Positions 8,722-55,333 of a stretch of DNA of 56,698 nt are shown in pieces. Source of the DNA: a virus; the IMG/VR virus record IMGVR_UViG_3300042698_000010, positions 1 through 56,698 of that record; one strand, given 5' to 3'. A model generated the notes under the pieces. That model was not told the origin of the DNA. It worked only from the letters and a program-made list of their open reading frames with translations, and ran no database searches. Position 1 is the first letter of the stretch; each line of letters opens with the position of its first letter. The position numbers and the translations under genes were made by a program.

Positions 8722-8756
8722 AACAGCCCCGCTGGATTCCTTCCGGCGGGGCTGTT
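8722..8756 (+). terminator. Terminator fused to next promoter
   Basis: AACAGCCCCGC pairs with GCGGGGCTGTT across a 13-base loop after the stop at 8708. Its last two bases start the TTGCAT -35 element of the next unit. The motif GACCTGCGG (8712-8720) stands directly before the stem. Confidence 0.75.
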
Positions 8757-8783
8757 GCATTCCCTGGCGACTAGATGTAGTGT
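8755..8783 (+). promoter_or_regulatory. Promoter, TTGCAT-N17-TAGTGT
   Basis: A clear member of the recurrent promoter type, upstream of the basic protein gene at 8828 and abutting the terminator at 8722-8756. Confidence 0.7.
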
Positions 8784-8827
8784 TGTTCCTGTCAGCAGGA
8801 CGCAGCAGCAGCAGAGAAGAGGACCCC

Positions 8828-9166
8828 ATGAACGCCAGCGCACGCAAGGCCCGCCGCCTGATCAACGAGCGCCGTGACCTGGCGAAGGGCATCGAGCGCA
8901 AGCGCCTCATCTCGGCCCACGTGGCCCGCGCCACTGCCGACACCGCGGCACGCAAGACAGTGACCGCCGCGCTTCAGAAGGCGGCCAAGCCGCTGCGCGA
9001 GGCTGGCGACCTGGGCACCGTGAAGACCCGCGTCTGCGCTGTCGCCGACGGCGTCCGCGGGAAGACCCACCGCTACACCGCCCGCCAGGTGGCGAAGATC
9101 GCCGCCCAGTACAACCCGCGCAAGGCCGAGGGCAAGGCCGCGAAGGCCGCGCTGCTCGGCGCGTAA
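8828..9166 (+). CDS. Small basic, possibly nucleic-acid-binding protein
   Basis: The 112-residue product is rich in Lys, Arg and Ala and should be mostly helical (ARKARRLINERRDLAKGIER, YTARQVAKIAAQYN), a composition often seen in DNA-binding or nucleoid-type proteins. ATG 8828 has AGAAGAGG upstream. It is a single-gene unit with its own promoter and a strong terminator. No domain is recognised, so DNA binding is inferred from charge only. Confidence 0.7.
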   Translation: MNASARKARRLINERRDLAKGIERKRLISAHVARATADTAARKTVTAALQKAAKPLREAGDLGTVKTRVCAVADGVRGKTHRYTARQVAKIAAQYNPRKAEGKAAKAALLGA

Positions 9167-9174
9167 GGACCTGC

Positions 9175-9205
9175 GGGGCCCGGCGTTCAACCGGGGCCGG
9201 GCCCC
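9175..9205 (+). terminator. Terminator hairpin
   Basis: GGGGCCCGGC pairs with GCCGGGCCCC around an 11-base loop, just after the basic protein gene. GACCTGCGG (9168-9176) overlaps its 5' edge. Confidence 0.75.
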
Positions 9206-9257
9206 TTCGCCAACCCGACTCGTGCCCGCTGGCACGGTTAAGCGAAAGGCCACCACC

Positions 9258-9581
9258 GTGACCGAAGCCGACAATCCCCGCACCACCTTCGAAGCGTTCG
9301 AATGGGTGGCCTTCGCTGCCTGTGGCCAGCTGGACGCGCCGCCGATGTTCCCCCACCCGACGGACGAAGTCGGCGTTGCGGCCGCCAAGGCGACCTGCGC
9401 CGTCTGCCCGGTCCAGCCCGAGTGCCTGGACCGGGCCATCGCCACTGGCGAGCAGCACGGCGTATGGGGCGGCATGACCGAGGAAGAGCGGCGCAACGCA
9501 CGGCGCCGTGAGTCTCGTGCCCGCAGCCGGAAGCCCGGCGCCATCGCCGTGACGATCGTGCCGCTCGGCGACCTTCTCTGA
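9258..9581 (+). CDS. WhiB-like iron-sulfur transcriptional regulator
   Basis: The 107-residue product has the four-cysteine WhiB pattern (Cys22, Cys47, Cys50, Cys56) and the GVWGG turn (68-72), followed by an Arg-rich DNA-contact tail. WhiB proteins carry a 4Fe-4S cluster and act with the principal sigma factor. Phage members can rewire host septation genes or exclude other phages. GTG 9258 has GAAAGG 9 bases upstream, which decides the start over an in-frame ATG-less extension. It stands alone between two terminators. Confidence 0.93.
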   Translation: MTEADNPRTTFEAFEWVAFAACGQLDAPPMFPHPTDEVGVAAAKATCAVCPVQPECLDRAIATGEQHGVWGGMTEEERRNARRRESRARSRKPGAIAVTIVPLGDLL

Positions 9582-9587
9582 TCCGCG

Positions 9588-9618
9588 GCGGCCCCCGCCC
9601 GATCTGGACGGGGGCCGC
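9588..9618 (+). terminator. Terminator after WhiB-like gene
   Basis: GCGGCCCCCG pairs with CGGGGGCCGC around an 11-base loop, 6 bases after the stop codon. The loop and 3' arm hold the TGGACG -35-like element of the next gene. Confidence 0.75.
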
Positions 9619-9633
9619 ATCTGCCGCTAGGAT
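9605..9633 (+). promoter_or_regulatory. Candidate promoter for leaderless HNH gene
   Basis: TGGACG, 17 bases, TAGGAT. The -10 ends 6 bases before the ATG at 9640, so transcription would start at or next to the start codon. Confidence 0.45.
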
Positions 9634-9639
9634 GAAACC

Positions 9640-10212
9640 ATGAACAATATCAACGGGACCTACCGCAACCCACGGCACGACGAAATCGCCGACGCGATCC
9701 GCCAGGGCCTGAGCGACCCGGCCGTGGCCAAGCGTATCGGCGTCGCCCGCAAGACCGTGACCCGTGTCCGGAAGATCGAAGGCCTGCCCGCGTTCACCGT
9801 GGCGCGGACCGTGGCACAGATCTTCCTTGAGGACGCCCGCACAGAGGACGACGGGCACACCTACTGGGACGGCTGCCGGGATACCGGCGGTGCGCCTCAG
9901 ATCCGCTTTGAGGGGCGGTACCTGCGGGCTTCGCACGTGGCCTTCGAGACCTTCCACGGGCGGCCGCCGGTGGGCTACGTCAAGGCCGACTGTGACGTGC
10001 CGCACTGCCTCACCCCGAGCCACATCCTTGATGACCTCGGCCGCCGGAAGCTGTACATGCAGCTGCGCACCCTGGAAGGCCTGTACGGCCACTGGGACGC
10101 GTGCACGGCCTGCGGTGCCGACTGGGACACGTGGGGCCGCGTGCAGCCCAACCTTCAGATCTACTGCGGCGCGTGCAGCCTGCGGCGCAGCCGGGGCCAG
10201 GCGGCGGCATGA
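9640..10212 (+). CDS. HNH-type endonuclease with N-terminal HTH
   Basis: The 190-residue product begins with a resolvase-like helix-turn-helix (EIADAIRQGLSDPAVAKRIGVARKTVTRVRK, split here as residues 15-45). It continues into an HNH-like core (HVAFETFHGRPPVGYVKADC, then CLTPSHI, about 90-130) and ends in a zinc-ribbon-like tail with CTACGAD and YCGACSLRR. That layout is typical of free-standing phage homing nucleases. There is no clear ribosome site, and the -10 is adjacent to the ATG. The stop overlaps the next start (ATGA). Confidence 0.8.
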   Translation: MNNINGTYRNPRHDEIADAIRQGLSDPAVAKRIGVARKTVTRVRKIEGLPAFTVARTVAQIFLEDARTEDDGHTYWDGCRDTGGAPQIRFEGRYLRASHVAFETFHGRPPVGYVKADCDVPHCLTPSHILDDLGRRKLYMQLRTLEGLYGHWDACTACGADWDTWGRVQPNLQIYCGACSLRRSRGQAAA

Positions 10213-10484
10213 GCCACGTCATGAAGTACGGGCCTCGCCGTCCGGCCCCGGTGGCGAGCACCGAGCAGCTGGCCGAGGCGACGTGCCGCAGGCTGCGGCT
10301 GAACGGCGGGGATGCAGCATTCTTCGCCACGGTGTTCGGCTACGTCCGCGAGGAAGAGTTGGCGGGCCGTGACACCTACGCGCTGTGGTCTCAGTACCGC
10401 CGCGACAAGCACAGCGACCTGGCCACCGCGGCGTACCTGGAAGCCCTGGCATCGACACGGAAGATGGGACGGCCAGCACTGTGA
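10209..10484 (+). CDS. Hypothetical protein, 91 aa
   Basis: Starts by 4-base overlap with the HNH gene and ends by 4-base overlap (GTGA) with the LuxR-type gene, so the three are one coupled operon. The product is helical and charged (TEQLAEATCRRLRLNGGDAAFFATVFGYV is followed by an acidic-basic stretch). No family is recognised. Confidence 0.7.
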   Translation: MSHVMKYGPRRPAPVASTEQLAEATCRRLRLNGGDAAFFATVFGYVREEELAGRDTYALWSQYRRDKHSDLATAAYLEALASTRKMGRPAL

Positions 10485-10708
10485 AGACGCGAGCGAGGAC
10501 CATGACCGAGCGCGAGCGTCTCGTGATGCTGGACACCGCGCGCGGCCTTACGGCGCAGCAGATCGCCGACCACCGGGACCTGTCGCTGTTCGGCGTACAG
10601 CACACGCTGCGCCGCGTGAAGCTAGCGCTCGGCGCCGAGACGATCGCCCACGCTGTGGCCCTGAGCATTGCCCTGGGCTACATCACCCCCGAGGACGTGA
10701 CGGCATGA
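10481..10708 (+). CDS. LuxR/GerE-type HTH regulator
   Basis: The 75-residue product is almost only a GerE domain: TERERLVMLDTARGLTAQQI then an HTH ending in TLRRVKLALGAETIAHAVAL. It lacks any sensor domain. The GTG at 10481 overlaps the previous stop; an ATG at 10502 is an alternative start that keeps the whole domain. Such stand-alone GerE proteins bind promoters directly, and this one is a candidate switch protein for the late or accessory promoters. The target is not known. Confidence 0.85.
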   Translation: MKTRARTMTERERLVMLDTARGLTAQQIADHRDLSLFGVQHTLRRVKLALGAETIAHAVALSIALGYITPEDVTA

Positions 10709-11445
10709 GCATGCGCTACTGCGACCGGTGCGACGGCTGCGCCGACGACTACTGCGGGGGCGGCTGCGGGTCGCCTCGCTGGTGCAACGCCGCTTACCAC
10801 GGCTTCGGCTGCGACGCCTGCCACAAGCCCGTGATGCGGCCCGCATGGGCCTTCCGTCCGGCCAAGTTGGTGCACTGCCACCTGAACCGCCACCACAGCG
10901 GCGACTGCTCACCTGGCAGCAAGGCCGTGCCGCAGCCCGAGCCGGTCAAGCAGCCCGAGCCCCCCGAAGGCGCCCCCGCGCCGGGTCACGTTCACGCTCT
11001 ACACCAACGAAGGGAACTGATCATGCAGCACATCCAGTACACCGACCGCGACTTCGTCGCCCACGCGGCCGAGGTGATGGCCGACCGGATCCTGGAAGAG
11101 GGCGGCTACACGCACGCGGACGAGCAGGCGTGCCGGAAGCTCGAAGCCATCGGCAAGGGCGGCACCGCGCTGGTGCTGACCGGGGCCGAGCTGGACCTGT
11201 CGCAGGCTTCCTCGCTCATGGGCAAGGTGATCCAGGCCGAGCTGGACCACTGGGTCCCCGGTTCCTCGCAGCGCCTGATCTGGCGTGCGGCGCAGGCCCT
11301 CGGCTTCACGGCACCCGCCGTCCTGAAGCACCCGTTCAACGACACCGACTGTGGCACCGAGCCGCGCTATCACTCGCTGACGCCGAGCTGGCTGGCCGGT
11401 CGCTACCTCATGTGCTGCTCGGTGTGCGGGCGGCTCTACAGCTGA
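10705..11445 (+). CDS. Cysteine-rich protein fused in frame to second module
   Basis: The 246-residue frame begins with a dense Cys/His zinc-binding region (CDRCDGCADDYCGGGCGSP and CDACHKP, then HCHLNRHH), followed by a Pro-rich linker. After that comes MQHIQYTDRDFVAHAAEVMA and a C-terminal CCSVCG. An internal ATG at 11023 has its own AAGGGA ribosome site. In the next frame the sequence before it reads like a natural gene end (VTFTLYTNEGN then stop at 11020). Two ancestral genes may thus have been fused, or a frameshift in the C-run near 10970 may hide a gene boundary. No function is assigned. Confidence 0.65.
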   Translation: MSMRYCDRCDGCADDYCGGGCGSPRWCNAAYHGFGCDACHKPVMRPAWAFRPAKLVHCHLNRHHSGDCSPGSKAVPQPEPVKQPEPPEGAPAPGHVHALHQRRELIMQHIQYTDRDFVAHAAEVMADRILEEGGYTHADEQACRKLEAIGKGGTALVLTGAELDLSQASSLMGKVIQAELDHWVPGSSQRLIWRAAQALGFTAPAVLKHPFNDTDCGTEPRYHSLTPSWLAGRYLMCCSVCGRLYS

Positions 11446-11476
11446 CCCTGGACAACCGCGGACAACCGTGGACAGC

Positions 11477-11515
11477 GAAGGGCCCCCACCGATCCGAACT
11501 CGGTGGGGGCCCTTC
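11477..11515. terminator. Bidirectional terminator between convergent operons
   Basis: GAAGGGCCCCCACCG pairs perfectly with CGGTGGGGGCCCTTC (15 bp, 9-base loop). It separates the plus-strand early region from the end of the minus-strand late operon. Confidence 0.85.
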
Positions 11516-11523
11516 GGGTTGCG

Positions 11524-11799
11524 CTACTTCGTGATCAGGTACGTTGCGACGGCCGCGAGGGCACTCACAACGCCCGAAGCGGCAGCCACCGGGGCCAGTG
11601 GCCAGCGCCGCTCTTCCAGTGCGCCTACACGCCCTTCCAGGGCCGTGACGCGGTTGTTCACGGTGTCGATGTCCTTGACGGCGTTGGCCTGAGCCTGACT
11701 GATCAAGTTCAGCTTCCCGTCTAGGCGCTCGAATCCGGCAGCCATTTCCCCTCGAAGGGTAGCTAGGGCGGCTGCAACGTTCACTTCGTCGTCAGCCAT
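11524..11799 (-). CDS. XhlA-like holin accessory protein
   Basis: The 91-residue product has a coiled-coil with repeated hydrophobic positions (ATLRGEMAAGFERLDGKLNL, then KDIDTVNNRVTALEGRVGAL) and one C-terminal membrane segment (LAPVAAASGVVSALAAVATYL). That is the layout of XhlA-type lysis proteins, which work with a holin. ATG 11799 is chosen; a longer form from 11820 is possible. It is the last gene of the late operon, next to a holin and the amidase. Confidence 0.7.
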   Translation of the reverse strand: MADDEVNVAAALATLRGEMAAGFERLDGKLNLISQAQANAVKDIDTVNNRVTALEGRVGALEERRWPLAPVAAASGVVSALAAVATYLITK

Positions 11800-11832
11800 G
11801 ACAGCCCCCCACGGCTGCAACGACCGCCACGG

Positions 11833-12060
11833 CTACTCGCCCTGGTCGCGGGTGTCCACCGCGAGTGCGCTGTTGCGGTTGCCGAGCGCCTTGACGACGG
11901 CGCCGTACAGCACCACCAGGACGGACGGGAACGCGGCGACACCAGCGGCCTTGACGGCGGTCAGGTTCGTGATGTCGAACCCGGACGCCGTGAGCAGGCC
12001 CAGGAAGCTGGCCGCGTAGGTCAGCCCCGCCAGCTCAGCGAGCGACTTCAGGTACTTCAT
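11833..12060 (-). CDS. Holin, r1t-type
   Basis: The 75-residue product has two hydrophobic segments (GLTYAASFLGLLTASG and AAGVAAFPSVLVVLYGAVVKAL) joined by a short polar turn and a charged C-terminus, matching small r1t-type holins that open the membrane for the endolysin. It lies directly after the amidase gene in the late operon. Confidence 0.75.
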   Translation of the reverse strand: MKYLKSLAELAGLTYAASFLGLLTASGFDITNLTAVKAAGVAAFPSVLVVLYGAVVKALGNRNSALAVDTRDQGE

Positions 12061-12119
12061 GATGTGATCCTCTCGGGACGGTTACCGCGCAGCCCCCGCG
12101 CCCGCCGTACGGCTTCGCC

Positions 12120-12968
12120 TCAGCTGGCGTTGCCGTGCACGTTGACGTCCACCGAGACGGCGTTGGCCGCCAGTGCCTCGGTGACGGCAGCCTTCACCTT
12201 CGCGGCCACCTCATCGGCGGACAGGCCGTGCTGCGCGGCCACCAGGCCGGACAGCGCGCTGATCGCAGCGAGCAGTGCGGCCAGGTCATTCTTGTTGCCC
12301 CACAGCATGGCGTTCAGCTGGCCGAACCAGGCGCGGACTTCCTCATCCATGATGAGCCCCTTCGGTGCATCGGCCGCGAACAGTTCGAAGATCGGGCCGG
12401 GGTCGGTGTGGTCGTTCTCGGGGATCTGGCTGTGCCCGTAGTGTCCGGGCACCGACTGCCAGGTCCCGCTGTTGCGGTTGCCGTTCCAGGTGGGCTGGCC
12501 CATGGGCCAGACGTCGGGCACACCCCAGCTGCGCAGCCAGGACATGATCCGGTCCAGGCCTGCGGCCGGCGTGTCCTTCAGCGTGGGGTAGACCTTCCCG
12601 CCGACGCGGCAGTACGGGAAGAACAGCCACTCGATCTGGATGTTCACCGTGCCGTGCCGGTTCGTCTCGACGCCGCCGCTGGCATTGATCAGGGCCCGAG
12701 CGGACCGGTCCGCCGGGATGAACTGCGCCACGCGGCCGGTGAACGGATCGGCCAGCAGATGCGGTGCGCTGCCCGCACCGGCGCCGCTGAAGTATCCGGC
12801 GAGGCTGTCGAACGGGATGAGGTCCAGTGGCGCAGCGGCGGTGCCGTTCTTGTCCCACGTGATGTGGTGGGTAGCGCGTGCGCCGCCTACGCCGTCCATG
12901 GTCCCGCCGTTGTTGGTCGGGCGCTGCTCGGCGCCCGGAAGCCAGATGGCTGGCATCGCGGTTGTCAC
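12120..12968 (-). CDS. Endolysin, N-acetylmuramoyl-L-alanine amidase
   Basis: The 282-residue product has an Amidase_2/PGRP-like core: THHITWD supplies one zinc His, and VPGHYGHSQIPENDHTDPG the second His and the Asp of the zinc site. The C-terminal 90 residues are helical and Ala-rich (LAALLAAISALSGLVAAQ) and may mediate wall binding or oligomerisation. It cleaves the amide between muramic acid and the peptide stem. The GTG at 12968 sits very close to GAGAGGAA, and an ATG four codons later is an alternative start. It precedes the holin genes. Confidence 0.85.
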   Translation of the reverse strand: MTTAMPAIWLPGAEQRPTNNGGTMDGVGGARATHHITWDKNGTAAAPLDLIPFDSLAGYFSGAGAGSAPHLLADPFTGRVAQFIPADRSARALINASGGVETNRHGTVNIQIEWLFFPYCRVGGKVYPTLKDTPAAGLDRIMSWLRSWGVPDVWPMGQPTWNGNRNSGTWQSVPGHYGHSQIPENDHTDPGPIFELFAADAPKGLIMDEEVRAWFGQLNAMLWGNKNDLAALLAAISALSGLVAAQHGLSADEVAAKVKAAVTEALAANAVSVDVNVHGNAS

Positions 12969-12974
12969 TTCCTC

Positions 12975-13781
12975 TCAGTTGGGGCAGAGCGTGCTGTCCG
13001 GCACGGGCACCGGCAGCGGGTTGGCGCCCGAGCGGACCACGCCGTCGGCCGAGAGCAGCGGGCCCATGCAGCGCCACCACACCCACGCCATGTACCGGTA
13101 GCCGGTGTCGCCGGGGTGGACGCCGTCCGGCAGCAGCCCGGACGGGACGGCAGCGCTCATGCGGGCCAGCGACACGCGGGGCCCGGCCGCCGAGACGATC
13201 TGGGGCAGCCGCTCGTTGAAGCGCTGCTGCGCCACGGACGCCACGTCGCTGTAGGTGCCGTACCAGTTCGGGATCAGGTCGCCGACCACTACCCGCACCG
13301 TCGGCGACGCCGAGGTGATCCGGCCGATCAGGTCGGCCATCCGGCTGGCCATGACGTCGGCATTGGCACCCTGGCGCGCGTCGTTCGTCCCCGCGTCCAG
13401 CAGGACAACGTCAGGCTGATACGCGGCCATCCACCCGTCGATCTGCTCGGACAGCTGGTCGATGCGCCAGCCCGAGTGGCCTTCGTGGTGGGGGTTGGAC
13501 TGCTGGCCGCTCGACTGTGAGCCGACCCATGTGGCGGTATAGATCTGCTGGACTTCGACCATGTAGCGGGCGACGTCCCATCGGTATCCGTCGCCGGTCG
13601 AGCTGCCGACACCGGCCGTGATGCTGTCGCCCAGCGGCATGACCCGCAGATGCTTCGACGTGTCGATCGGCGGCAGCGTCGACTCTGCGCCGGTGGCGGC
13701 CGGGCCCGGTATGAGCAGCGCTGCGGCGACCGAGGCGGCCAGGGCCGCACCGAGAACTGCCGGAAGGGTGGTGGTGCGCAA
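12975..13781 (-). CDS. Secreted SGNH/GDSL hydrolase
   Basis: The 268-residue product has an N-terminal signal-peptide-like region (residues 1-32). The SGNH blocks follow: GDSITAG with Ser53, GTND with Asn133, and DGVHPGD with Asp219 and His222, so the catalytic Ser-Asp-His set is complete. These enzymes remove acyl groups from sugars or lipids. The start is TTG with AGGA upstream. It lies between minor tail genes and the amidase, so it may act on cell envelope polymers during lysis or entry. The substrate is not known. Confidence 0.85.
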   Translation of the reverse strand: MRTTTLPAVLGAALAASVAAALLIPGPAATGAESTLPPIDTSKHLRVMPLGDSITAGVGSSTGDGYRWDVARYMVEVQQIYTATWVGSQSSGQQSNPHHEGHSGWRIDQLSEQIDGWMAAYQPDVVLLDAGTNDARQGANADVMASRMADLIGRITSASPTVRVVVGDLIPNWYGTYSDVASVAQQRFNERLPQIVSAAGPRVSLARMSAAVPSGLLPDGVHPGDTGYRYMAWVWWRCMGPLLSADGVVRSGANPLPVPVPDSTLCPN

Positions 13782-13789
13782 GGGTGGTC

Positions 13790-22831: not shown

Positions 22832-23500
22832 CTAGGCGTACATCAGAGTTGCGGTGACCGAGCCGCCACCGACAACAACCTCGGACACTGTCCCGCGGAA
22901 GTACCGGAAGGCGCCCCCGTCAAGCGTCAGATACTGGTTCACGCCCGTGGCCAGGTTGCCGGTGGACGCCAGCCGCACCCAGTTGGCCCCGTCCTGGCTG
23001 GCCTGAAGGTCGACCACGCCGGACGTTACGGTGCCGTTCACCAGGGCAAAGAGGGTGACGTTCTTCTTCGCGTTGGCGAAGTCCACGGTGGTGCCGTTGC
23101 TGACCGCGGTGGCGGTCGTTAACGTCGTGCTGGCTGTGGTGGACCCGGCCGGGGCCGTGGTCACGGTACCCGCGACGCTGGACACCGCGACGGTTCCGCC
23201 GACGGTCACCGTGCCCGCGACGCTGGACACCGCGACGGTGCCGGACACGCCGATCGGCTGGCCGGTGATGCTGACCGGGACCGTGCCGACGATGGTGGCG
23301 TTGGTAGAGATCGGCTGGCCGGTGATCCCGACGCTGCCCGAGACCGGGACCGTGCCCAGTACGTTGACGTCCACCGGCTCGGCGATGGCAACCGTGTTGA
23401 GCACGTTGACGTCAATGGGCTGGTCCGTGATCTCTACCTGCTGGACCACACCGGGCGCGCCGCCGCAGCACGGCTGCGGGTCGAAGCTCGGCGTGCTCAC
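22832..23500 (-). CDS. Repeat-containing virion fibre-like protein
   Basis: The 222-residue product carries tandem short repeats: PIDVNVLNTV/PVDVNVLGTVPVSG, ITGQPI three times, and GTVAVSSVAGTVT twice, followed by a globular beta domain with WVRLASTGNLATGVNQYLTL. This fits a head fibre or decoration protein with a repetitive stalk. The repeats are visible in the DNA as well. GTG 23500 overlaps the stop of the upstream gene (GTGA). Confidence 0.7.
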   Translation of the reverse strand: MSTPSFDPQPCCGGAPGVVQQVEITDQPIDVNVLNTVAIAEPVDVNVLGTVPVSGSVGITGQPISTNATIVGTVPVSITGQPIGVSGTVAVSSVAGTVTVGGTVAVSSVAGTVTTAPAGSTTASTTLTTATAVSNGTTVDFANAKKNVTLFALVNGTVTSGVVDLQASQDGANWVRLASTGNLATGVNQYLTLDGGAFRYFRGTVSEVVVGGGSVTATLMYA

Positions 23501-32538: not shown

Positions 32539-32650
32539 AGCGTCCCCTTCGGTCGGTCGGTTGCCTGGTCCAGCTTACCGGCGACGGTTCCCGCCACCGC
32601 ACGGCGCAGCCGTGACCGGTCGTACCAGGCAAACCGGACAGGAAGTGGAT

Positions 32651-32982
32651 CTTCCCGCGTTACGGGCCCGCGTTTCCCGGGAAACGCGGGAAGGACGTTT
32701 CCGCAGGTCAGGCCAGGTATTGGGGGTCAATCGCCCGCGTATCCCGACTTTGGTCGGAAGACTAGGACCCGTAAGGGGTTAATACAATGATTGGTACATA
32801 CGACGCCGTTACACAGGGTCACATAACTGCGCCTACTGGGGGGCCGTTCATGTCAAGTGTTCATACCCCGCTCAGCTCAAAGTGTTGGGCCGAAACTCGG
32901 GTAACGCGGGAATCCGGGCTCTAAAGGCCCTCTGACCTGCGGAAACGGTTTCCCGGGAAACGCGGGACCGTTTCGCGGGAAG
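32651..32982. other. Palindromic noncoding locus A (duplicate of locus B)
   Basis: The 526-bp gap between divergent genes (32539-33064) holds no ORF of note. It does hold a 332-bp element that shares most of its sequence with 55345-55675. It starts CTTCCCGCG and ends TTTCGCGGGAAG. Both flanks carry TTTCCCGGGAAA and GACCTGCGGAAAC or its inverse, so the element is roughly self-complementary. The core has TTAATACAATG and TGGTACATA, the most AT-rich stretch around, and the right half has CCCCGCTCAGCTCAAAGTGT, as in locus B. Candidates are an origin, a centromere or clt-like site, or a recombination site. Confidence 0.85.
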
Positions 32983-33000: not shown

Positions 33001-33029
33001 TTGCACTGCAACACGAAGCCAGGTACCGT
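33001..33029 (+). promoter_or_regulatory. Promoter, TTGCAC-N17-TACCGT
   Basis: A good member of the recurrent promoter type, at the right edge of locus A. It is followed by the conserved leader GCAACCGCGAGAGAGGAA before the ATG at 33065. Confidence 0.7.
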
Positions 33030-33064: not shown

Positions 33065-33688
33065 ATGAACACGACCCACGCCGCAGCCGGTGTCTACTTC
33101 CCCGTCACCGAGCAGGACGACGTGCTGGTGAACCTCACCCTTCAGGGCCAGGTGATCCGGGCCGACGTCTACGCCGATGGCGCCTACACCGTCTGGGCGG
33201 GCTTCGAGTCCATCGCCACCGGCCAGCTGAACGGGACCGAGGGCCCGCTGATGGTCTTCTTCGCGGCCGAGGCGATGGTCTGGTCCTACGGCATCGACAC
33301 CGACCGAGAGGCCAACGCCGCCGCCGCCGAGCTGGCCGCCACGATCGAGCACGTGGACGCCAACGAGGTCAGCGAGGCGGTTGCCCAGGTCCGCGCCGAC
33401 GGTGCCGAGAAGCTGGCCGAGGCTGCCGAGATGGAAGCGCAGGGCAACGAGCCGATCGTGATCGCGGTCCGCCGCAACGGCGAGGTCCGGGGCCACCGCA
33501 AGATCGGCGCATGGGACCCGCGCCACCCCGCCCGTGCTGCCGCGTCCGTCCGCCGGGCCGGTGAGCGCCTGTCCCGCTGGACACAGGCTGACGAGGACGC
33601 CTACGGCCGCTACGTCTCGGACGGCCTGGCCGACACCGACGGCTACTACGCACCGCTGGACCGGGCGGCCTGGTCCTACGGCCGGTAG
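33065..33688 (+). CDS. Hypothetical protein in plus-strand island, 207 aa
   Basis: A single gene opposing the late operon, with its own promoter, leader and terminator. The N-terminal half is beta-like (VLVNLTLQGQVIRADVYADG). The middle is an Ala/Glu-rich helix (ANAAAAELAATIEHVDANEV), and the C-terminal part is rich in Tyr, Asp and Arg. No family is recognised. The same promoter type drives the early or accessory genes, so it is probably expressed with them rather than with the virion genes. Confidence 0.75.
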   Translation: MNTTHAAAGVYFPVTEQDDVLVNLTLQGQVIRADVYADGAYTVWAGFESIATGQLNGTEGPLMVFFAAEAMVWSYGIDTDREANAAAAELAATIEHVDANEVSEAVAQVRADGAEKLAEAAEMEAQGNEPIVIAVRRNGEVRGHRKIGAWDPRHPARAAASVRRAGERLSRWTQADEDAYGRYVSDGLADTDGYYAPLDRAAWSYGR

Positions 33689-36702: not shown

Positions 36703-36731
36703 TTGCGTTCCGTTCCCCGTTACGGGACAAT
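36703..36731 (+). promoter_or_regulatory. Promoter, TTGCGT-N17-GACAAT
   Basis: A recurrent-type promoter facing the lipoprotein gene, divergent from the tape measure gene. Confidence 0.6.
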
Positions 36732-40459: not shown

Positions 40460-40488
40460 GTCATACACCATCGGCGTCCGTGGTGCAA
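40460..40488 (-). promoter_or_regulatory. Late operon promoter
   Basis: On the minus strand TTGCAC, 17 bases, TATGAC. It faces the terminase genes and has the best -10 nearby. Transcripts must cross T2 and T1 before reaching the small terminase gene. Confidence 0.65.
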
Positions 40489-42565: not shown

Positions 42566-42874
42566 TCAGCGCTTGTAGAGCGACTGCCACAGGTCTTCCA
42601 GCTCGGCGGGCCACTCGCATTCGTTCTCGCAGAAGTCGACGTGCGCGCCGCACTCGCAGTTCGGCGCCCGGTGCAGCAGCACAACCTTCGCCCAGCCGCT
42701 TCGGTAGAAGTCACCGCCGCCCTTCAGCTCGACCGTGTAGCTGCCGTCCACGTAGTCGAGCGTCCGGACGACCGGGCCGTAGCTGGTGCCGTCCAGGTCG
42801 CCGACGAAGCGGAAGCGGTCGCCGAACAAAAGCTGGTTGAAGTTCAGGACGGTGCCGGTCGGGGTAATCGCCAT
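42566..42874 (-). CDS. Hypothetical protein, 102 aa
   Basis: ATG 42874 has GAGAGAGGAA upstream within the conserved leader. The product is beta-rich (FNQLLFGDRFRFVGDLDG, SYTVELKGGGDFYRSG) and ends with a Cys/His set (HRAPNCECGAHVDFCENEC) that could bind zinc. A single-gene unit with promoter and terminator. No family is recognised. Confidence 0.75.
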   Translation of the reverse strand: MAITPTGTVLNFNQLLFGDRFRFVGDLDGTSYGPVVRTLDYVDGSYTVELKGGGDFYRSGWAKVVLLHRAPNCECGAHVDFCENECEWPAELEDLWQSLYKR

Positions 42875-42909: not shown

Positions 42910-42938
42910 ACGCTACAGGGCCGGGGCTGCAAGTGCAA
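42910..42938 (-). promoter_or_regulatory. Promoter, TTGCAC-N17-TAGCGT
   Basis: A recurrent-type promoter. The -35 lies in the loop of a CCGGGG/CCCCGG hairpin (42926-42943 region), a small version of the terminator-promoter fusion. Confidence 0.7.
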
Positions 42939-42960
42939 CCCCGGCCCAGGATGATGTACA

Positions 42961-43832: not shown

Positions 43833-43861
43833 AGACTACAGCCCCCGCCCTCAAGTTGCAA
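43833..43861 (-). promoter_or_regulatory. Promoter, TTGCAA-N17-TAGTCT
   Basis: The -35 lies in the loop of a hairpin formed by GCCCCCGCC and GGGCGGGGGC (about 43841-43870), so the terminator of the upstream unit and this promoter overlap. Confidence 0.7.
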
Positions 43862-43900
43862 GGCGGGGGCAGGTGGGGTGTCAGCGAAGCTGCCGAAGGC

Positions 43901-44464: not shown

Positions 44465-44493
44465 AGCCTAGCGGTCCTGCCTCAGAAACGCAA
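44465..44493 (-). promoter_or_regulatory. Promoter, TTGCGT-N17-TAGGCT
   Basis: A recurrent-type promoter abutting the terminator at 44494-44530. Confidence 0.7.
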
Positions 44494-44530
44494 CACCCCG
44501 CCAGCAACCGGGGGGTTTGCTGACGGGGTG
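44494..44530. terminator. Terminator fused to promoter
   Basis: CACCCCGCCAGCAA pairs with TTTGCTGACGGGGTG-type sequence with one mismatch. The same stem occurs at 48744-48780 and 53975-54005, always touching a TTGCGT -35. Confidence 0.75.
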
Positions 44531-44614
44531 CTACGGGCCTCGCGGCCGTGGGGGGTACAAACCACCCTAGAGGGTGACGGGGTGTGCCAGTTACCGCGAC
44601 GCCTTGACGGGCCC

Positions 44615-47016: not shown

Positions 47017-47045
47017 ACTCTAGCCGGTCCTGCGTTGCAGTGCAA
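47017..47045 (-). promoter_or_regulatory. Promoter, TTGCAC-N17-TAGAGT
   Basis: A clear recurrent-type promoter for the gene ending at 46011. It is followed by GTCAGCAGGAAGCAAC, a leader shared with the unit at 48675. Confidence 0.75.
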
Positions 47046-48717: not shown

Positions 48718-48746
48718 AAGCTACACGACTCGGGGCCGCAACGCAA
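48718..48746 (-). promoter_or_regulatory. Promoter, TTGCGT-N17-TAGCTT
   Basis: A recurrent-type promoter. Its -35 overlaps the 3' arm of the terminator at 48744-48780 by three bases. Confidence 0.75.
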
Positions 48747-48780
48747 CACCCCGCCAGCAACGGATGCTGACGGGGTGTTG
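48744..48780 (-). terminator. Terminator fused to promoter
   Basis: CAACACCCCGCCAGCA pairs with TGCTGACGGGGTGTTG (one mismatch) around a 5-base loop. GACCTGCGG lies just outside (48791-48799). Confidence 0.8.
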
Positions 48781-49843: not shown

Positions 49844-50277
49844 TGGTTCACCCGCCGGATCTGGTTCAGGTTCCCGGTCACCTGGTACGCGTCGGCCACG
49901 GACATGTCCACGCTGACGTGCCAGTCCATCCGGCGCCCGAGCATGTACGGGTGGATGGTCCAGGACCAGCCCGCGTCCAGCGCTGCGCGCACGTCGTCAT
50001 CGGACGGGTCACCCGCTGCGCCCAGCTCGGACAGCGTCAGGCAGGAAGCCGAGGCGCGGTCGTAGAGGGTGCCCGCGGTGTGGTCCGAGGGGACGCCCAG
50101 CGACACCATGGTCTCGGCGTCACGGATGTCCGCGAAGGCCACGCTCACGTCACCGTCGCTGGCGACGTAGCAGCCCAGATGATTGATGCCGAGACCTTCC
50201 AGCGTGATGGCCAGTTCCTCGGCCGCCACGGTGGCCAGTGACTCGGCACTGGTCCAGTCGTTGTCCGTCATGTCCAT
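49840..50277 (-). CDS. Hypothetical protein, 145 aa
   Basis: ATG 50277 has AAGGA upstream. An acidic N-terminal helix (AESLATVAAEELAITLEGLG) is followed by a mixed alpha-beta domain (CYVASDGDVSVAFADIRDAE) and a Trp-containing end. It is coupled to the resolvase. No family is recognised. Confidence 0.7.
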   Translation of the reverse strand: MDMTDNDWTSAESLATVAAEELAITLEGLGINHLGCYVASDGDVSVAFADIRDAETMVSLGVPSDHTAGTLYDRASASCLTLSELGAAGDPSDDDVRAALDAGWSWTIHPYMLGRRMDWHVSVDMSVADAYQVTGNLNQIRRVNQ

Positions 50278-50319
50278 GTTCCCGTCCTTCGGTGATCGCG
50301 GTTGTCGCTGCTGCTGGTG

Positions 50320-50934
50320 CTACTCGGCCGCGGGCTTGCGACGGCGGCGCGCTGGCTTGCCACCGCTGTACTGATTGCGGCTGGCCTCGCGGTGCATCGG
50401 CTGGACGCCCGCCTTGCGCGCGATGCGCAGCACGTGGTTGCGGTCGACGTTGACGGCGGCCGCGATGGCCGACGGGCCGAGGATCTTGCTCGCGTAGACC
50501 ATGGCCACGGTACGGTCGCGCTCGGCGCGGGCGGTCTTGACCGCCTTGGCCGCCTCGGCCTGCGCCTTGTTGGCCGAGGCCAGCGCGGCCTTCGTCTCGG
50601 CCACGAGCTTCTCGTCCAGGGACCGGCCAGAGCTGACGCGGGTCTGCTTGCCCGTGGTCGTGTCGCCGAAGGCGGACCACGTGCTGTCGATGTAGTTGCG
50701 GTCACGGCCGATCGCCGCCGCCATGGCGTCGACGGACAGGACGCCGGTCGGGCGCACGCGCACGATGGTCTCGCGAAGAGCGTCGATAGCGTCTTCCGAA
50801 GAGGTGACCGCGGCGTCCAGCGCCTCGCGCACCTGGCGCAGCGCGGCGATGGCGGTTGCCTGGTCGGCCAGTACGGACTTGTTGGCCGCGGCCAGGCCGG
50901 GGCTCTCGGCTTCGGTCCTCATGGTGGCATTCAT
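50320..50934 (-). CDS. Double helix-turn-helix DNA-binding protein
   Basis: The 204-residue product contains two similar HTH units, LSVDAMAAAIGRDRNYIDS and LGPSAIAAAVNVDRNHVLRI, separated by a charged helix (AALASANKAQAEAAKAVKTA). It ends in a basic tail (GGKPARRRRKPAAE). The two units share A-x-AA-hydrophobic-x-x-DRN, so they arose by duplication. A protein with two DNA-reading heads could bridge or bind repeated sites. ATG 50934 is chosen. Confidence 0.75.
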   Translation of the reverse strand: MNATMRTEAESPGLAAANKSVLADQATAIAALRQVREALDAAVTSSEDAIDALRETIVRVRPTGVLSVDAMAAAIGRDRNYIDSTWSAFGDTTTGKQTRVSSGRSLDEKLVAETKAALASANKAQAEAAKAVKTARAERDRTVAMVYASKILGPSAIAAAVNVDRNHVLRIARKAGVQPMHREASRNQYSGGKPARRRRKPAAE

Positions 50935-50972
50935 GGTCCTGTCCATTCTGGTCGATGTTGCTTCGTCGGTCC

Positions 50973-51001
50973 ATACTGGCATAGGTGAGGGCCGGATGCA
51001 A
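50973..51001 (-). promoter_or_regulatory. Promoter, TTGCAT-N17-CAGTAT
   Basis: A recurrent-type promoter whose -35 lies in the loop and 5' edge of the hairpin at 50989-51016. Confidence 0.65.
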
Positions 51002-51016
51002 CAGTGCATCCGGCCC
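50989..51016 (-). terminator. Terminator overlapping promoter
   Basis: GGGCCGGATGC pairs perfectly with GCATCCGGCCC around a 6-base loop, 3' of the helicase gene. The TTGCAT -35 of the next unit is inside it. Confidence 0.75.
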
Positions 51017-51031
51017 AGTCACAGCCCCTGA

Positions 51032-52870
51032 TCAGGCGGTCACGTACTTCCCGAAGCGCTCGTCCAGCGCCTTGCTGGCACGGGCCACGGCGATGGCGTC
51101 GGACGCCTCACCCTTCTTCATGCCCTCGGCCACCGCACCGCCCAGTCCGCGCAGCATCTTCAGCTGGCCGTCGCTGGCCGGACCCCGGCGCCAGCTGGCC
51201 TTCCGGTTGTTGTAGGTGTAGCCGGTGTCGGCTGCCAAGGCTTCCAGCGCGGCCACGGCCGTGACCGCATCGGTGGCGCCGCTGTCCAGCCGCTTGACGT
51301 CCACGCTGCGCCCCGACCCGCAGGCAAGCCCGTGGAAGAATCCGCCGTCCGGGGCGGGCAGAAGGAACACGTTCACCTCGTTGCCCACCGGCAGGAACTT
51401 GATCCCGGCCCGAGTGGTCAGCCAGGTGTAGCCAGAGCTCTTCAGCTCTTCGCCCAGGATGTCGACCTCGGTCAGCTTCTTCAGGACCGCGACGTCGACT
51501 TCCTTCGTCTCGATCTGGGGGCCCTCGCCACGGCAGTAGCAGCCGTCCGGGTTCAGCGAGCAGGCGCACGCATCCAGCCCGGTCCCGTCCTGGTCGCCGG
51601 GGCAGCCGCAGCCACAGTCCTCGGAACCGGCGCAGCGGCAGATGTTCGACGGCTTCTCGTGCTGCTCGACACAGCGGCAGCCGCACTGCCGGATGCCGCA
51701 CTTGCAGCGGTCCGAGCAGCCGCACGACAGGCAGTTGCAGTCACACCGGCCCGAGCAGTCGGATTCCAAGTCGTTGACACCGGCCAGGCTGTGCTTCAGC
51801 GAGGCGCCCGCGATGTCCAGGACCAGGCAGTCGCTCTTGCCCGACTCGGGGTGCAGCCGAAGCCCGCGGCCCACCATCTGAATGTAGAGACCGGGGTTGA
51901 GCGTCGGACGGCCGATGATCACGCAGCTGGTCTGGGGTGCGTCAAAGCCCTCGGTCAGCACCATGCAGCTAACCAGGATGCGTGTCTGGCCGGACGAGAA
52001 GCGCCCGTAGATGGCCTTCCGCTCGGTCGACGGGGTCGCGCCCGTGACAACCTCTGCCGAGGCGCCACAGACGGCTTCAAAGGCTTCCGCGGTCCGGGTC
52101 GCGGTGTGGACGTCCGGCATGAAGACGATCGTCGGACGCTCGCTGGCCTCTGCGCACCACGCCTCGGCAATGGCCGTGAACGCGTGGCTGTCTTCCAGCG
52201 CCTCGGCAACGTCCTTCGCGTTCAGGTCACCGGCGGTCACGCGGGTGGACGCCAGGTTGAGGCCCGGAACCTCGATCGACTTGGCGACCGGCGGCACCAG
52301 AAAGCCGCTCTTGATCATCCAGTGAATCTTCTTCGAGTACGCCACCGACTGCCAGACGTCGGGAAGCCCGCCGTCCATGCGGGTCAGCGTCGCCGTGAAG
52401 CCCACGGTGGGGGTGGCCCGGTCGTCCATGCAGCCGTAGTGGTCCAGGACCTCTCGGTAGGACTTCGCGGCGTAGCGGTGGCACTCGTCCACGATGACCA
52501 GGCCGATGCGGTCGACTGCCTCTCGGCGGGCGGGACGGGCCAGCGTCTGAACGGACGCCACGATCACGTCGGCGAACTGGTGCTTCTTCGCGCCCCGGCC
52601 GCCCTTGACGATGGCGGTCCAGACGCCGGGGACCATGGCTTTGATCTTCGCCTCGGCCTGTTCAAGCAGCTCTTCCCGGTGGGCCAGGACGAGCACCCGC
52701 TTCCCGTCCTTGCGCAGCTGATCGATGTGGCTGGCGATCAGGCCGCTGAAGCACACGGTCTTGCCAGCCCCCGTCGGCAGCACGACCACGGGCCGATTCA
52801 CGCCTTCAGCCCAACTGGCATCGACAGCCGCCAGCGCCTGTGACTGGTAGTCGCGCAACTGGAATCCCAT
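51032..52870 (-). CDS. SF2 DEAD/DEAH helicase with 20-cysteine insert
   Basis: The 612-residue product is an SF2 helicase: Walker A PTGAGKT (32-38), DECH box (128-131), TATLTRMDGG, and motif VI QMVGRGLRLH. Right after the second RecA domain, at about residues 368-446, comes a stretch with 20 cysteines in roughly 75 residues (pairs such as CDCNC, CGCRC, CGCGC). The C-terminal half then has a small domain (EVNVFLLPAPDGGFFHGLAC) and a helical end. Such helicases remodel replication or recombination forks. The insert probably binds several metal ions or Fe-S clusters. Confidence 0.9.
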   Translation of the reverse strand: MGFQLRDYQSQALAAVDASWAEGVNRPVVVLPTGAGKTVCFSGLIASHIDQLRKDGKRVLVLAHREELLEQAEAKIKAMVPGVWTAIVKGGRGAKKHQFADVIVASVQTLARPARREAVDRIGLVIVDECHRYAAKSYREVLDHYGCMDDRATPTVGFTATLTRMDGGLPDVWQSVAYSKKIHWMIKSGFLVPPVAKSIEVPGLNLASTRVTAGDLNAKDVAEALEDSHAFTAIAEAWCAEASERPTIVFMPDVHTATRTAEAFEAVCGASAEVVTGATPSTERKAIYGRFSSGQTRILVSCMVLTEGFDAPQTSCVIIGRPTLNPGLYIQMVGRGLRLHPESGKSDCLVLDIAGASLKHSLAGVNDLESDCSGRCDCNCLSCGCSDRCKCGIRQCGCRCVEQHEKPSNICRCAGSEDCGCGCPGDQDGTGLDACACSLNPDGCYCRGEGPQIETKEVDVAVLKKLTEVDILGEELKSSGYTWLTTRAGIKFLPVGNEVNVFLLPAPDGGFFHGLACGSGRSVDVKRLDSGATDAVTAVAALEALAADTGYTYNNRKASWRRGPASDGQLKMLRGLGGAVAEGMKKGEASDAIAVARASKALDERFGKYVTA

Positions 52871-52902
52871 GGGGTTGCCTTTCTCGCGGTTGGTGTGGTG
52901 CA

Positions 52903-52931
52903 ACTCTACCGAAGATCCGTAGATGATGCAA
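52903..52931 (-). promoter_or_regulatory. Promoter, TTGCAT-N17-TAGAGT
   Basis: A recurrent-type promoter for the helicase. It overlaps the 3' end of the HNH gene. Confidence 0.7.
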
Positions 52932-53475
52932 CCCCGATACCGAGAGGGCCCGAGTACCAGTTCAGCTCTGAGAGCAGTAGCACCGACTTCCGGTTGTTGC
53001 ATGCCTTGTGAGTCGGTGCCAAGTTGTCCAGGCAGTGCGCGCCACCACGAGCCAGCGGAATGATGTGGTCCAACTGAATCGGACCTGCCAACGGCTTTCC
53101 GCAGAGGTAACAGTCAGACGCGCTGGCCATGACTTCCGCTTCGTTGACGTCCCCGATCGTTGCACCCGCCTTGACAGCACGCCGCTTCTGAGCCCCCTTG
53201 CGCGCAGCTGCGCGAACAGCTTCGGGATTGTCCGCGTACCGGCGTCGCATCTTGTCGCGGTTGTACTCGCGGGCCGCTTCAGGGTCGGACCAGTACCGGG
53301 CCCGCTGCGCTTCCAACTGCGGAACCGGGTTGTCCGCGTACTTCGCGCGGGCCGCAGCGCTCTTGCAGCTGCGGCACCGGCTATTACGGCCATAGGCGCC
53401 AAGCTTGTTAAGGCTGAAGTCGTCAAGAGGCTTGGCCTCATTGCAGCCGGTACAGACCTTGATAATCCCGTTCAC
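52906..53475 (-). CDS. HNH endonuclease with zinc-finger N-terminus
   Basis: The 189-residue product starts with a zinc-finger-like region (VCTGCNEAKPLDDFSLNK, CRSCKSAAARAKY), has a long basic helix, and ends in an HNH core (DCYLCGKPLAGPIQLDHIIP then NLAPTHKACNNRKS). This is the plan of phage-borne HNH homing-type nucleases. GTG 53475 has GGAAGAG upstream. Codon use and lack of coupling fit a mobile gene. Confidence 0.88.
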   Translation of the reverse strand: MNGIIKVCTGCNEAKPLDDFSLNKLGAYGRNSRCRSCKSAAARAKYADNPVPQLEAQRARYWSDPEAAREYNRDKMRRRYADNPEAVRAAARKGAQKRRAVKAGATIGDVNEAEVMASASDCYLCGKPLAGPIQLDHIIPLARGGAHCLDNLAPTHKACNNRKSVLLLSELNWYSGPLGIGVASSTDLR

Positions 53476-53501
53476 GTCGGCTCTTCCCGAGAGATAACAC
53501 A

Positions 53502-53531
53502 GGATGCCCGCGGTTGCTGCCGCGGGCATCC
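53502..53531 (-). terminator. Terminator hairpin
   Basis: GGATGCCCGCG pairs perfectly with CGCGGGCATCC around an 8-base loop, between two minus-strand genes. Confidence 0.75.
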
Positions 53532-53551
53532 TTCCTTCTGACCAGTCTACC

Positions 53552-53902
53552 TCACAGGCCGAGCAGGGCCATGCGGTCCGCGTGGCGGGCCAGGAAGCCC
53601 GTCAGAACGCGGGCCCGGCTGAAGCGGTTGGCCCGCTTCGCCATCTTCCGGGCCGCCTCGCTGCCGAGGTTCCACAGGTCACCGGCGGCGGTCAGCTCTC
53701 GGGCGTACGCCATCGTGGTGGTGTCCATGGACGCGACACCCTCGCCGTACCACCAGACCACCAGGACGCGCGGGTCATCGGTCATCATGCCGAGCACCAC
53801 GCCCTTCTTCGGGCGGGCCGACGGCTTGCCCTCTCGGACCGGGCGGCCGGTGACGACGTCGCCGGTGAGGAAGGTGGCGGTGGCGGTGGCGGTGGCGGTC
53901 AT
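53552..53902 (-). CDS. Hypothetical protein, 116 aa
   Basis: ATG 53902 with GAAGGG upstream; it begins with a Thr-Ala repeat (MTATATATATF). A beta-rich middle (GVVLGMMTDDPRVLVVWWYG) is followed by a basic helical end (EAARKMAKRANRFSRARVLT). No family is recognised. A single-gene unit with a cassette-type promoter. Confidence 0.7.
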   Translation of the reverse strand: MTATATATATFLTGDVVTGRPVREGKPSARPKKGVVLGMMTDDPRVLVVWWYGEGVASMDTTTMAYARELTAAGDLWNLGSEAARKMAKRANRFSRARVLTGFLARHADRMALLGL

Positions 53903-53945
53903 GGTGTGTCCCTTCGTTGTGGTGAGCAACGTGCTCACAGGAAGA

Positions 53946-53974
53946 ACAGTACAGGCTGCGCCGCGGGAACGCAA
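53946..53974 (-). promoter_or_regulatory. Promoter, TTGCGT-N17-TACTGT
   Basis: A recurrent-type promoter touching the terminator at 53975-54005. Confidence 0.7.
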
Positions 53975-54005
53975 CACCCCGCCAGCAACTGTGGCTGGCG
54001 GGGTG
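53975..54005 (-). terminator. Terminator fused to promoter
   Basis: CACCCCGCCAGC pairs perfectly with GCTGGCGGGGTG around a 7-base loop, 3' of the Cys-rich gene at 54020. Confidence 0.8.
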
Positions 54006-54019
54006 TCGACCTGCGCTGA

Positions 54020-54325
54020 TCAGTGGTGGAACGGGCAGACGGCGTGGACCGAGAGGGCGCAGCGGACCCGCAGCGGGCTGCACGTCTCGGCCGGGTAGCT
54101 TCCGTGCACGGGGCACGCCGCGCCCCCGCACGGTGCCGGGCAGTCGGGCTCGGGCGCGTTGGGGCAGCCGTCCACGTGGTCGTCCTCACCCGCCGTCCCA
54201 CCGCAGCCACACGTCAGATCGCGCGGATCGGGGAAGCACCGCGGGCAGTCGTAGTTCTCTGCCACCTTGATCTCACCTACGCCGATATCGACGTACTCGC
54301 ACCAGCAGGACGGCTCAGCAGCCAT
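54020..54325 (-). CDS. Cysteine-rich protein, 101 aa
   Basis: ATG 54325 overlaps the upstream stop. About 15 cysteines and several histidines (CWCEYVD, CPRCFPD, TCGCGG, CPAPCGGAACPVHG) suggest several zinc fingers. The CPVHG unit also occurs in the upstream gene, so the two may be related by duplication. No family is recognised. Confidence 0.7.
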   Translation of the reverse strand: MAAEPSCWCEYVDIGVGEIKVAENYDCPRCFPDPRDLTCGCGGTAGEDDHVDGCPNAPEPDCPAPCGGAACPVHGSYPAETCSPLRVRCALSVHAVCPFHH

Positions 54326-54975
54326 CACGCACCGTCCACGCACTCGGTACCGTGCGACGGCTCGGCGCCGCAGCCGGGGCAGACGTCGGCCGGACGGTCG
54401 GACAGCCGCGCGAGGGCGGGCATCCCGTGCACGGGGCACGTGGCGTCCCAGTCGCACGCCGGGCCCTGGCCGCCCGGAAGGATGGGGCAGTCGTCGGCCG
54501 GGCCAGCGTTCAGCTGGGCGGCCGCCCACTCGGTCACCGCTACACGCTGCGAACAGCTGGGCTGGTGCGCCAGCTCGGTGAAGGTGCGCCCCTCGGCCCC
54601 GTACTGGACGTCCGAGTACAGGCCGACCCGAACGCCGCACTCGGGGCAGCGCGGCCGCCACACCGGCGCGCCCCACTTCGAGTCTTCGTAGCGGGCCAGG
54701 TCGGCCACCATGGACTCTTCCACGGCCCATGTGGCACCGCGCTGGATCTGCTCGCCGGTGAGGTACCGGGTGTGCGCCGAGACGCGGTCTTCGAAGTCCT
54801 CGGGGTCGTTCAGGTCGCTCTCGCCGTCGGTGGCCACGGACTTGCCTACGGCCTGGATCATCAGGCCGATCAGGCCGATCAGGTCATCCGCCATGGCGGC
54901 GCGCTTCTCGGGGTCCTGCGTGACGTGCTGCGCGACGTCCAGCGCGGCTGCCTTGAGCTCATCCAGCCGGTTCAC
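54325..54975 (-). CDS. Zinc-finger-like protein, 216 aa
   Basis: GTG 54975 overlaps the upstream stop. A helical N-terminal half (LKAAALDVAQHVTQDPEKRA, DDLIGLIGLMIQAVGKSVAT) is followed by Cys pairs (RCPECGVRVG, CPVHGMPALARLSD, VCPGCGAEP). No family is recognised. It is probably an accessory DNA- or protein-binding factor. Confidence 0.7.
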   Translation of the reverse strand: MNRLDELKAAALDVAQHVTQDPEKRAAMADDLIGLIGLMIQAVGKSVATDGESDLNDPEDFEDRVSAHTRYLTGEQIQRGATWAVEESMVADLARYEDSKWGAPVWRPRCPECGVRVGLYSDVQYGAEGRTFTELAHQPSCSQRVAVTEWAAAQLNAGPADDCPILPGGQGPACDWDATCPVHGMPALARLSDRPADVCPGCGAEPSHGTECVDGA

Positions 54976-55298
54976 TTCTCGGCCCCCTTCGCCTCGGCCA
55001 GCTTCTCGCCGTAGTGCTGCGCCACCAGGTCCTTCATGGCCCGCAGCGTCTTGGCCTGGCGGGCGTCGCGGTACAGGCAGAAGCTGCCGTTGACCCACCC
55101 GCGGGCGACCCACTGGTGCTGCCGGGGCTGGTCGATCACGTAGCGGTAGACATCGTCACCGATGGCGACCTCGGCGTAGTGGGTCATCCCCACCGTGCCC
55201 CAGACCCGCTTCTGCGACCAGGCCAGTGCGCCCGTCGCAAGCTGCTGCTGTACGGCGCCGACCTCGGGCGCCTCGGTGTTCCTCGCGGTGTCGTTCAT
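54972..55298 (-). CDS. Hypothetical protein, 108 aa, leaderless
   Basis: The ATG at 55298 lies 6 bases after a perfect -10 (TAGTCT) and has no ribosome site, so the mRNA should begin at the start codon. The product has a compact alpha-beta middle (HYAEVAIGDDVYRYVIDQPR, WVARGWVNGSFCLYRDARQA) and a helical end. First gene of a three-gene coupled unit beside locus B. No family is recognised. Confidence 0.75.
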   Translation of the reverse strand: MNDTARNTEAPEVGAVQQQLATGALAWSQKRVWGTVGMTHYAEVAIGDDVYRYVIDQPRQHQWVARGWVNGSFCLYRDARQAKTLRAMKDLVAQHYGEKLAEAKGAEK

Positions 55299-55304
55299 GG
55301 CTAC

Positions 55305-55333
55305 AGACTACCGGACCTGTGGCCGTAGTGCAA
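55305..55333 (-). promoter_or_regulatory. Promoter, TTGCAC-N17-TAGTCT (leaderless gene)
   Basis: A strong member of the recurrent type at the left edge of locus B. The -10 ends 6 bases before the ATG at 55298. Confidence 0.75.

Follow-up and report, generated by a model that had tools for sequence, protein, structure and literature searches.

The DNA studied here, called the window throughout, is a viral sequence of 56,698 bases and 69% G+C from IMG/VR (IMGVR_UViG_3300042698_000010), in which short intergenic elements combine a promoter-like sequence, TTGCRN-N17-TANNNT, with a predicted RNA hairpin lying on or directly against its -35 box. These elements are probably composite terminator-promoters of cluster BG Streptomyces phages, a reading to which we assign a probability of about 0.77. 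Phage records matching the window (14 of 50,697) are those of Woodruffvirus-like Streptomyces phages, a group to which the window itself belongs, and its relatives are Woodruffvirus siphoviruses; they constitute cluster BG, and their genomes are circularly permuted (PMC5511901). An exact 127-base direct repeat at the termini of the window (1-127 and 56572-56698) indicates that it closes on itself as a complete genome, and its + strand runs in the opposite orientation to YDN12. The main comparison covered 13 loci, comprising the window and 12 loci (L numbers below) from 11 relatives, with genic and intergenic classes defined by gene calls from our own simple codon-usage caller.

Eleven matches to the motif TTGC[AG]N-N17-TANNNT are present in the window (1849+, 8755+, 33001+, 42938-, 43861-, 44493-, 47045-, 48746-, 52931-, 53974- and 55333-). 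When the spacing was varied, one match each was seen at 12, 13, 14 and 15 bases and none at 16 or at 18-23, and the motif read backwards gave no match in the window; the spacer of exactly 17 bases, proposed in the original prediction made for this DNA, is thereby borne out. That prediction had assigned 14 sites to one layout. Eleven fit it exactly, while the remaining three retain TTGC[AG]N but have degenerate -10 boxes (GACAAT at 36703+, TATGAC at 40488- and CAGTAT at 51001-), with weight-matrix scores of 9.2, 10.7 and 10.3, respectively, compared to 14.5-25.9 for the exact sites. The motif recurs in the 11 relatives: over the 13 loci, 79 matches fall in 52.8 kb of intergenic sequence and 2 in 405.5 kb of genic sequence (reversed control, 0 and 1). 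It is thus not as frequent within genes as between them; equal frequency had been named in advance as a result that would speak against the layout. Six related IMG/VR records, two of which share sites, contain 50 matches versus 1 for the reversed control. A promoter general to Streptomyces phages was considered and rejected, since phiC31, R4, phiHau3 and TG1 carry 0, 1, 0 and 0 matches. In the weight matrix, TG is favored before the -10 (T in 41 and G in 24 of 66 sites, then G in 55 of 66), and the consensus downstream of the -10 is CnTnCTTGTAAGCAACC. By eye, many elements also show CTTCCTT past the -10, shortly ahead of the expected start, which could pair with the ribosome-binding region GAAGGAAG in read-through RNA. 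The layout had been described as occurring across the genome, and in this respect the claim fails: the leftward block from about 11.5 to 32.5 kb, which judging from maps of the relatives contains the structural genes, holds, counting both strands, a single TTGC match with the 17-base spacer, and this one (23097+, TTGCTG) is genic.

The seven hairpins originally placed on a -35 were all found in position (first seven rows of Table 1), with folding energies (dG) of -24 to -37 kcal/mol, and a search for a strong hairpin on the -35 at 1849, 33001, 36703, 40488, 47045, 52931 and 55333 found none. What had been overlooked is that in most elements the TTGC itself belongs to the stem or loop. Two arrangements can be distinguished. 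In class A, the TTGC terminates the hairpin's 3' arm or immediately follows it (e.g. 8720-8758 and 48744-48780), and in class B it sits in the loop or the 5' arm, with the spacer up to the -10 taken up by the 3' arm (e.g. 42918-42947). Hairpin centers are correspondingly bimodal relative to the start of the -35, at -16 in 10 of 46 hairpins and at +6 in 17 of 46. Among 76 non-redundant TTGC sites, which include the genic site at 23097, the best stem exceeds the 95th percentile of random stretches at 58. A scan of IMG/VR for the class B core retrieved 18 stretches, of which eight at 67-70% G+C, on five contigs that are either relatives already known or equal to them in length, have a strong stem at the match and the other ten, at 48% G+C or less, do not.

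It is the pairing, and not the sequence, that is conserved in the hairpin arms, which vary yet remain complementary both between sites and at one site across phages. An arm-swap test was made on 38 class B sites and 23 of 34 class A sites out of the 76 and, because this set was selected, was repeated without selection on all 66 sites with a 17-base spacer. In the unselected set, class B-type pairing was 16.70 for the real arms versus 12.12 ± 0.44 after swapping, and class A-type pairing was 17.38 versus 10.39 ± 0.61, with 44 of the 66 sites exceeding one of two pairing thresholds; the selected sets gave a stronger difference. For 15 class B elements, being those of 17 sites with that geometry that form at least 10 of 13 pairs, 99.0% of cells are paired, two-sided changes occur at 5 of the 13 pairs, and none of 500 shuffles scored as high; sliding the structure lowers pairing to 33-55%. 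At orthologous loci (families 17 and 5), the hairpin is kept with different stems. Upstream of family 17, for example, nine phages have class A in seven cases and class B in two, and upstream of the helicase there are nine strong stems of differing sequence, all with the -35 in an arm or the loop.

The presence of a hairpin follows the direction of the preceding gene. In the non-redundant set, it is found at 46 of 57 promoters with a co-directional upstream gene and at 1 of 11 divergent promoters (Fisher p 1.1e-5), and the median z score for RNA folding is -3.6 and +0.2, respectively. The redundant set, which includes orthologues and counts one region twice because loci L001 and L015 overlap, gives 75/85 and 2/21. 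Hairpins at co-directional but not divergent promoters point to termination of the upstream transcript rather than to an operator, and these counts, together with the co-varying arms, support the insulation that had been proposed. The wording that each gene or small operon is insulated was too strong, given that 203 of 288 co-directional gaps of at least 45 bp have no strict promoter.

Two further promoter types accompany the main motif. A second -10 subclass missed by the original prediction, TTGC-N17/18-CATRYT, has 14 + 16 (30) intergenic and no genic matches (e.g. L001 32088(-), L012 30185(-) and L002 45946); it is present in some co-directional gaps without a strict promoter and may be a separate expression class. 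The pattern TTGAC-N17-TANNNT is absent from the window (0 sites, versus 11 for TTGC[AG]), but over all loci there are 13 such sites, with a start codon 0-7 nt past the -10 in every case, so the TTGC promoters are accompanied by a TTGAC class. These leaderless-type promoters were noticed in the right arm (L001 42100, L012 35134 and L017 7595), at the first gene of which they have no hairpin, and near WhiB genes (L011 23273, L002 22596 and L012 22676), where they sit in an inverted repeat that takes in the TTGAC. The principle therefore extends beyond TTGC. The need for pairing was considered as the reason for TTGC over TTGAC and is insufficient alone, because hairpin-free promoters also have TTGC and six TTGA sites have a strong stem.

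We infer from these patterns that termination takes place at the hairpin, that the promoter is read by the host sigma factor HrdB, or by some variant of that factor, and that transcription starts just past the -10. The -35 of the promoter, TTGCRN-N17-(TG)TANNNT, would be part of the sequence of an RNA hairpin, and only transcripts of the upstream gene would form that hairpin. An incoming RNA polymerase would make the hairpin and most likely terminate there, and a new polymerase would start beyond the -10 and produce RNA lacking the hairpin, leaving the gene unit insulated from its neighbor by about 60-70 bp. WblC-activated promoters of S. coelicolor are described as starting 7-8 bp after the -10 (PMC7157823), and with such a start here the element's own RNA would not contain the hairpin, which would then act only on upstream transcripts. 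Several observations weigh against this interpretation. Hairpins are also found in 152 of the 203 co-directional gaps that lack a strict promoter, and 11 of the 57 co-directional promoters have none. The elements share the G+C-rich hairpin of a canonical intrinsic terminator but not the T run directly after the stem: canonical U-rich terminators are at chance level between 40.2 and 56.0 kb (8, versus 5.4 ± 2.9 in shuffles), and the T content after promoter-linked hairpins, 0.36-0.38 compared to 0.25 after promoterless ones, is confounded by the Ts of the promoter itself. A scan of the same region for E. coli-type promoters gave no matches, and the TTGC -35 is unlike the NTGACC given for the host (PMC4895711).

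The poor U-tracts, the chance level of canonical terminators and the frequency of promoterless hairpins in co-directional gaps would all suit hairpins that mark sites of RNA processing or shield upstream messages at their 3' ends, next to promoters that are nonetheless real. We regard this as unlikely, as co-directional-only placement suits termination equally well without an extra factor, and the hairpins are very stable. Terminators without poly-U have reportedly been found in the Streptomyces phage phiC31 by Ingham and colleagues (1995). That the inverted repeats are operators, with a phage repressor or activator binding a DNA dyad over the -35, is suggested by dyads centered on or next to the -35, by conserved flanks around TTGCA and by the presence of short helix-turn-helix genes (4854-5027, a weak Pfam match). 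A binding site for one protein should have conserved arms, and here the arm sequences change between sites, with co-variation, while divergent promoters of the same type have no dyad; on these grounds the operator was rejected as very improbable. Random stretches of these genomes often contain strong stems (their stem score has a 95th percentile of 25.5), as would be expected were the pattern an artefact of chance or of 69% G+C composition, but the spacing, reversed-pattern, intergenic, co-directional/divergent and arm-swap results refute this and leave it a negligible prospect.

Compatible with the terminator-promoter, and not exclusive of it, is a phage-specific promoter class that needs a phage factor, such as a WhiB protein bound to the housekeeping sigma factor, for the recognition of TTGC in place of TTGAC, with the hairpin being secondary. 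This is possible, though not probable. The C at position 4 of the -35 recurs where there is no hairpin (primase and first-gene promoters), a WhiB gene is present in the window phage and annotated in six named relatives, and factors of the WblC/WhiB7 type are described as acting next to the -35 (PMC7157823). The WhiB-family gene at 9222-9581 is a candidate helper for TTGC reading. Pulling the other way, the upstream flank is G-rich and has no A/T-rich motif of the WhiB7 type, and leaderless-type TTGAC promoters coexist with the TTGC class. A more speculative extension of termination is a relay, in which the hairpin frees the RNA atop the next promoter and the same polymerase remains DNA-bound, takes up sigma again and initiates anew at the next gene. 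We know of no DNA element built for polymerase retention or restart. Both steps have been described after intrinsic termination (PMC6978380, PMC6978322), and it is from this literature and the geometry of the elements that the relay, which we consider distinctly unlikely, is drawn. If true, a whole arm of one-gene units would be transcribed by few polymerases, and not as one operon.

The original prediction also held that genes are easily gained and lost with these cassettes, and this is supported by examples, although the statistical link is weak. Among 12 phages, the right-arm location of families 39 (DUF6409), 58 (Nudix), 63 and 66 varies from phage to phage, and in 15 of 16 occurrences the gene has a strict promoter of its own. 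An alignment of cassettes had been suggested as a check on whether gene and cassette move together, and in one case, family 66, they align as a unit: between TP1604 and IMG/VR locus L021, element and gene align at different loci as one exact 432-base block, running from the 5' edge of the element to the end of the gene. Immediately before the helicase, YDN12 and TP1604 differ by an element plus a family 39 gene, and in YDN12 two adjacent elements are nearly identical. An own promoter is only slightly commoner among accessory genes (37 of 90) than among core genes (45 of 159; p=0.049, with no correction for relatedness), and a preference of accessory genes for single-gene cassettes was not borne out (12/90 versus 12/159 core genes, p=0.18). 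In the window, an HNH endonuclease gene (52906-53475(-); PF01844, E-value 8.1e-10) with a low third-position G+C of 0.73 lies between the DUF6409 gene and the helicase. It overlaps the helicase promoter, which is hairpin-free here although nine relatives have a hairpin at this place, and which looks like a natural loss of the hairpin half of an element.

Table 1. Predicted elements and associated features of the window.
Feature	Position	Strand	Details
Class A element	8720..8783	+	Hairpin 8720-8758, 3' arm ends in TTGC of -35 (8755-8760); -10 TAGTGT 8778-8783; upstream of gene 8828-9166 and WhiB gene
Class B element	42910..42947	-	Hairpin 42918-42947, TTGC in 5' arm; -10 TAGCGT; predicted to drive gene 42566-42874 (family 63, relocating among relatives)
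Class B element	43833..43870	-	Hairpin 43841-43870, -35 TTGCAA in arm and loop; -10 TAGTCT
Class A element	44465..44535	-	Hairpin 44489-44535 ends in TTGCG of -35; -10 TAGGCT
Class A element	48718..48780	-	Hairpin 48744-48780; -35 TTGCGT; -10 TAGCTT
Strong-hairpin element	50973..51016	-	Hairpin 50989-51016 over -35 TTGCAT; degenerate -10 CAGTAT
Class A element	53946..54008	-	Hairpin 53972-54008; -35 TTGCGT; -10 TACTGT; upstream of DUF6409 gene 53552-53902 (family 39)
Class B-type hairpin	1579..1618	+	Hairpin 1579-1611, TTGCAT at 1590; degenerate -10 TTCACT; not among the sites originally predicted
Promoter	47017..47045	-	TTGCAC, TAGAGT; -35 without hairpin; separate strong hairpin farther upstream in same gap
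Helicase promoter	52903..52931	-	TTGCAT, TAGAGT; overlaps 3' end of HNH gene; no hairpin, unlike most relatives
Promoter of lone + gene 33065-33688	33001..33029	+	Divergent context, no hairpin
Promoter of first leftward gene	55305..55333	-	Divergent origin-like region; ATG 6 nt past -10; no hairpin
Promoter-like site	1849..1877	+	TTGCAT, TAGGCT; -35 without hairpin
Promoter-like site	36703..36731	+	Degenerate -10 GACAAT; no strong hairpin
Promoter-like site	40460..40488	-	Degenerate -10 TATGAC; no strong hairpin
WhiB-family gene	9222..9581	+	PF02467, E-value 6e-19; candidate sigma-associated regulator

The closest known kind of element is the PeSL, on which work in T4-like myoviruses has reportedly been published by Arbiol (2010) and Comeau (2014). 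PeSLs are characterized, in a citing description, as composite promoter-terminator motifs of T4-like phages tied to gene shuffling (PMC4503421). As far as that description allows comparison, the elements resemble them in having a stem-loop joined to a promoter in intergenic regions and in a link to gene shuffling, here the four relocated families and the one exact block, with weak statistical enrichment. They belong to another phage group and host, being found in Woodruffvirus siphoviruses with TTGCRN-N17-TANNNT in place of a T4-type early promoter in a T4-like myovirus, and the placement of the -35 inside the hairpin, as part of its stem or loop and at either of two fixed registers, may be another difference. 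The early region of phiC31, also a Streptomyces phage, has multiple promoters and hairpins without a U-tract between early genes. Unlike the window phage, phiC31 has no TTGC[AG]-N17-TANNNT match, and it has its own annotated sigma factor gene. In phiC31 (L054 38387) and TG1 (L057 37096), promoter-like sites before the integrase genes were seen by eye to lie in an inverted repeat spanning the -35. Morons of lambdoid phages are autonomously transcribed single-gene insertions (promoter-gene-terminator); the elements differ in fusing a terminator with the next promoter and in forming a general junction that includes core genes. Streptomyces HrdB-type promoters are described as having a -10 of TANNNT and a less conserved -35 of NTGACC (PMC4895711). 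The -10 is shared by 11 of the 14 listed sites, but the elements have a TTGC -35 at a near-invariant 17-base spacing and not a TTGAC-like one. Two cluster BG genome announcements do not mention such elements, and the available text of the Geonosis paper has no match for 'promoter' or 'terminator'; judging from these and from literature searches, they may be undescribed in cluster BG.

Two other features of the window were noted. A tRNA-Thr (cgt) gene is present at 7229-7304(+), and the phiC31 and TG1 records also have a tRNA-Thr gene. A stretch of 335 bp is duplicated with 77% identity (32648-32982 and 55342-55675), both copies carrying GCGGGAA/TTCCCGC iterons and each lying in an intergenic region between divergent genes. 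The pair looks like a replication origin and a second copy of it beside the lone + gene in the structural block.

If the elements act as proposed, then at many sites of a phage group one short sequence would stand under two codes, that of RNA pairing and that of promoter recognition. As the arms are free to differ but must pair, while the -35 and -10 are fixed, the elements offer a set of natural mutants for studying promoter-terminator overlap, insulation and polymerase recycling, and they could provide compact insulator parts for G+C-rich actinomycetes. Each gene unit would be a self-contained block movable between genomes, which would account for the gain and loss of small genes in these phages.

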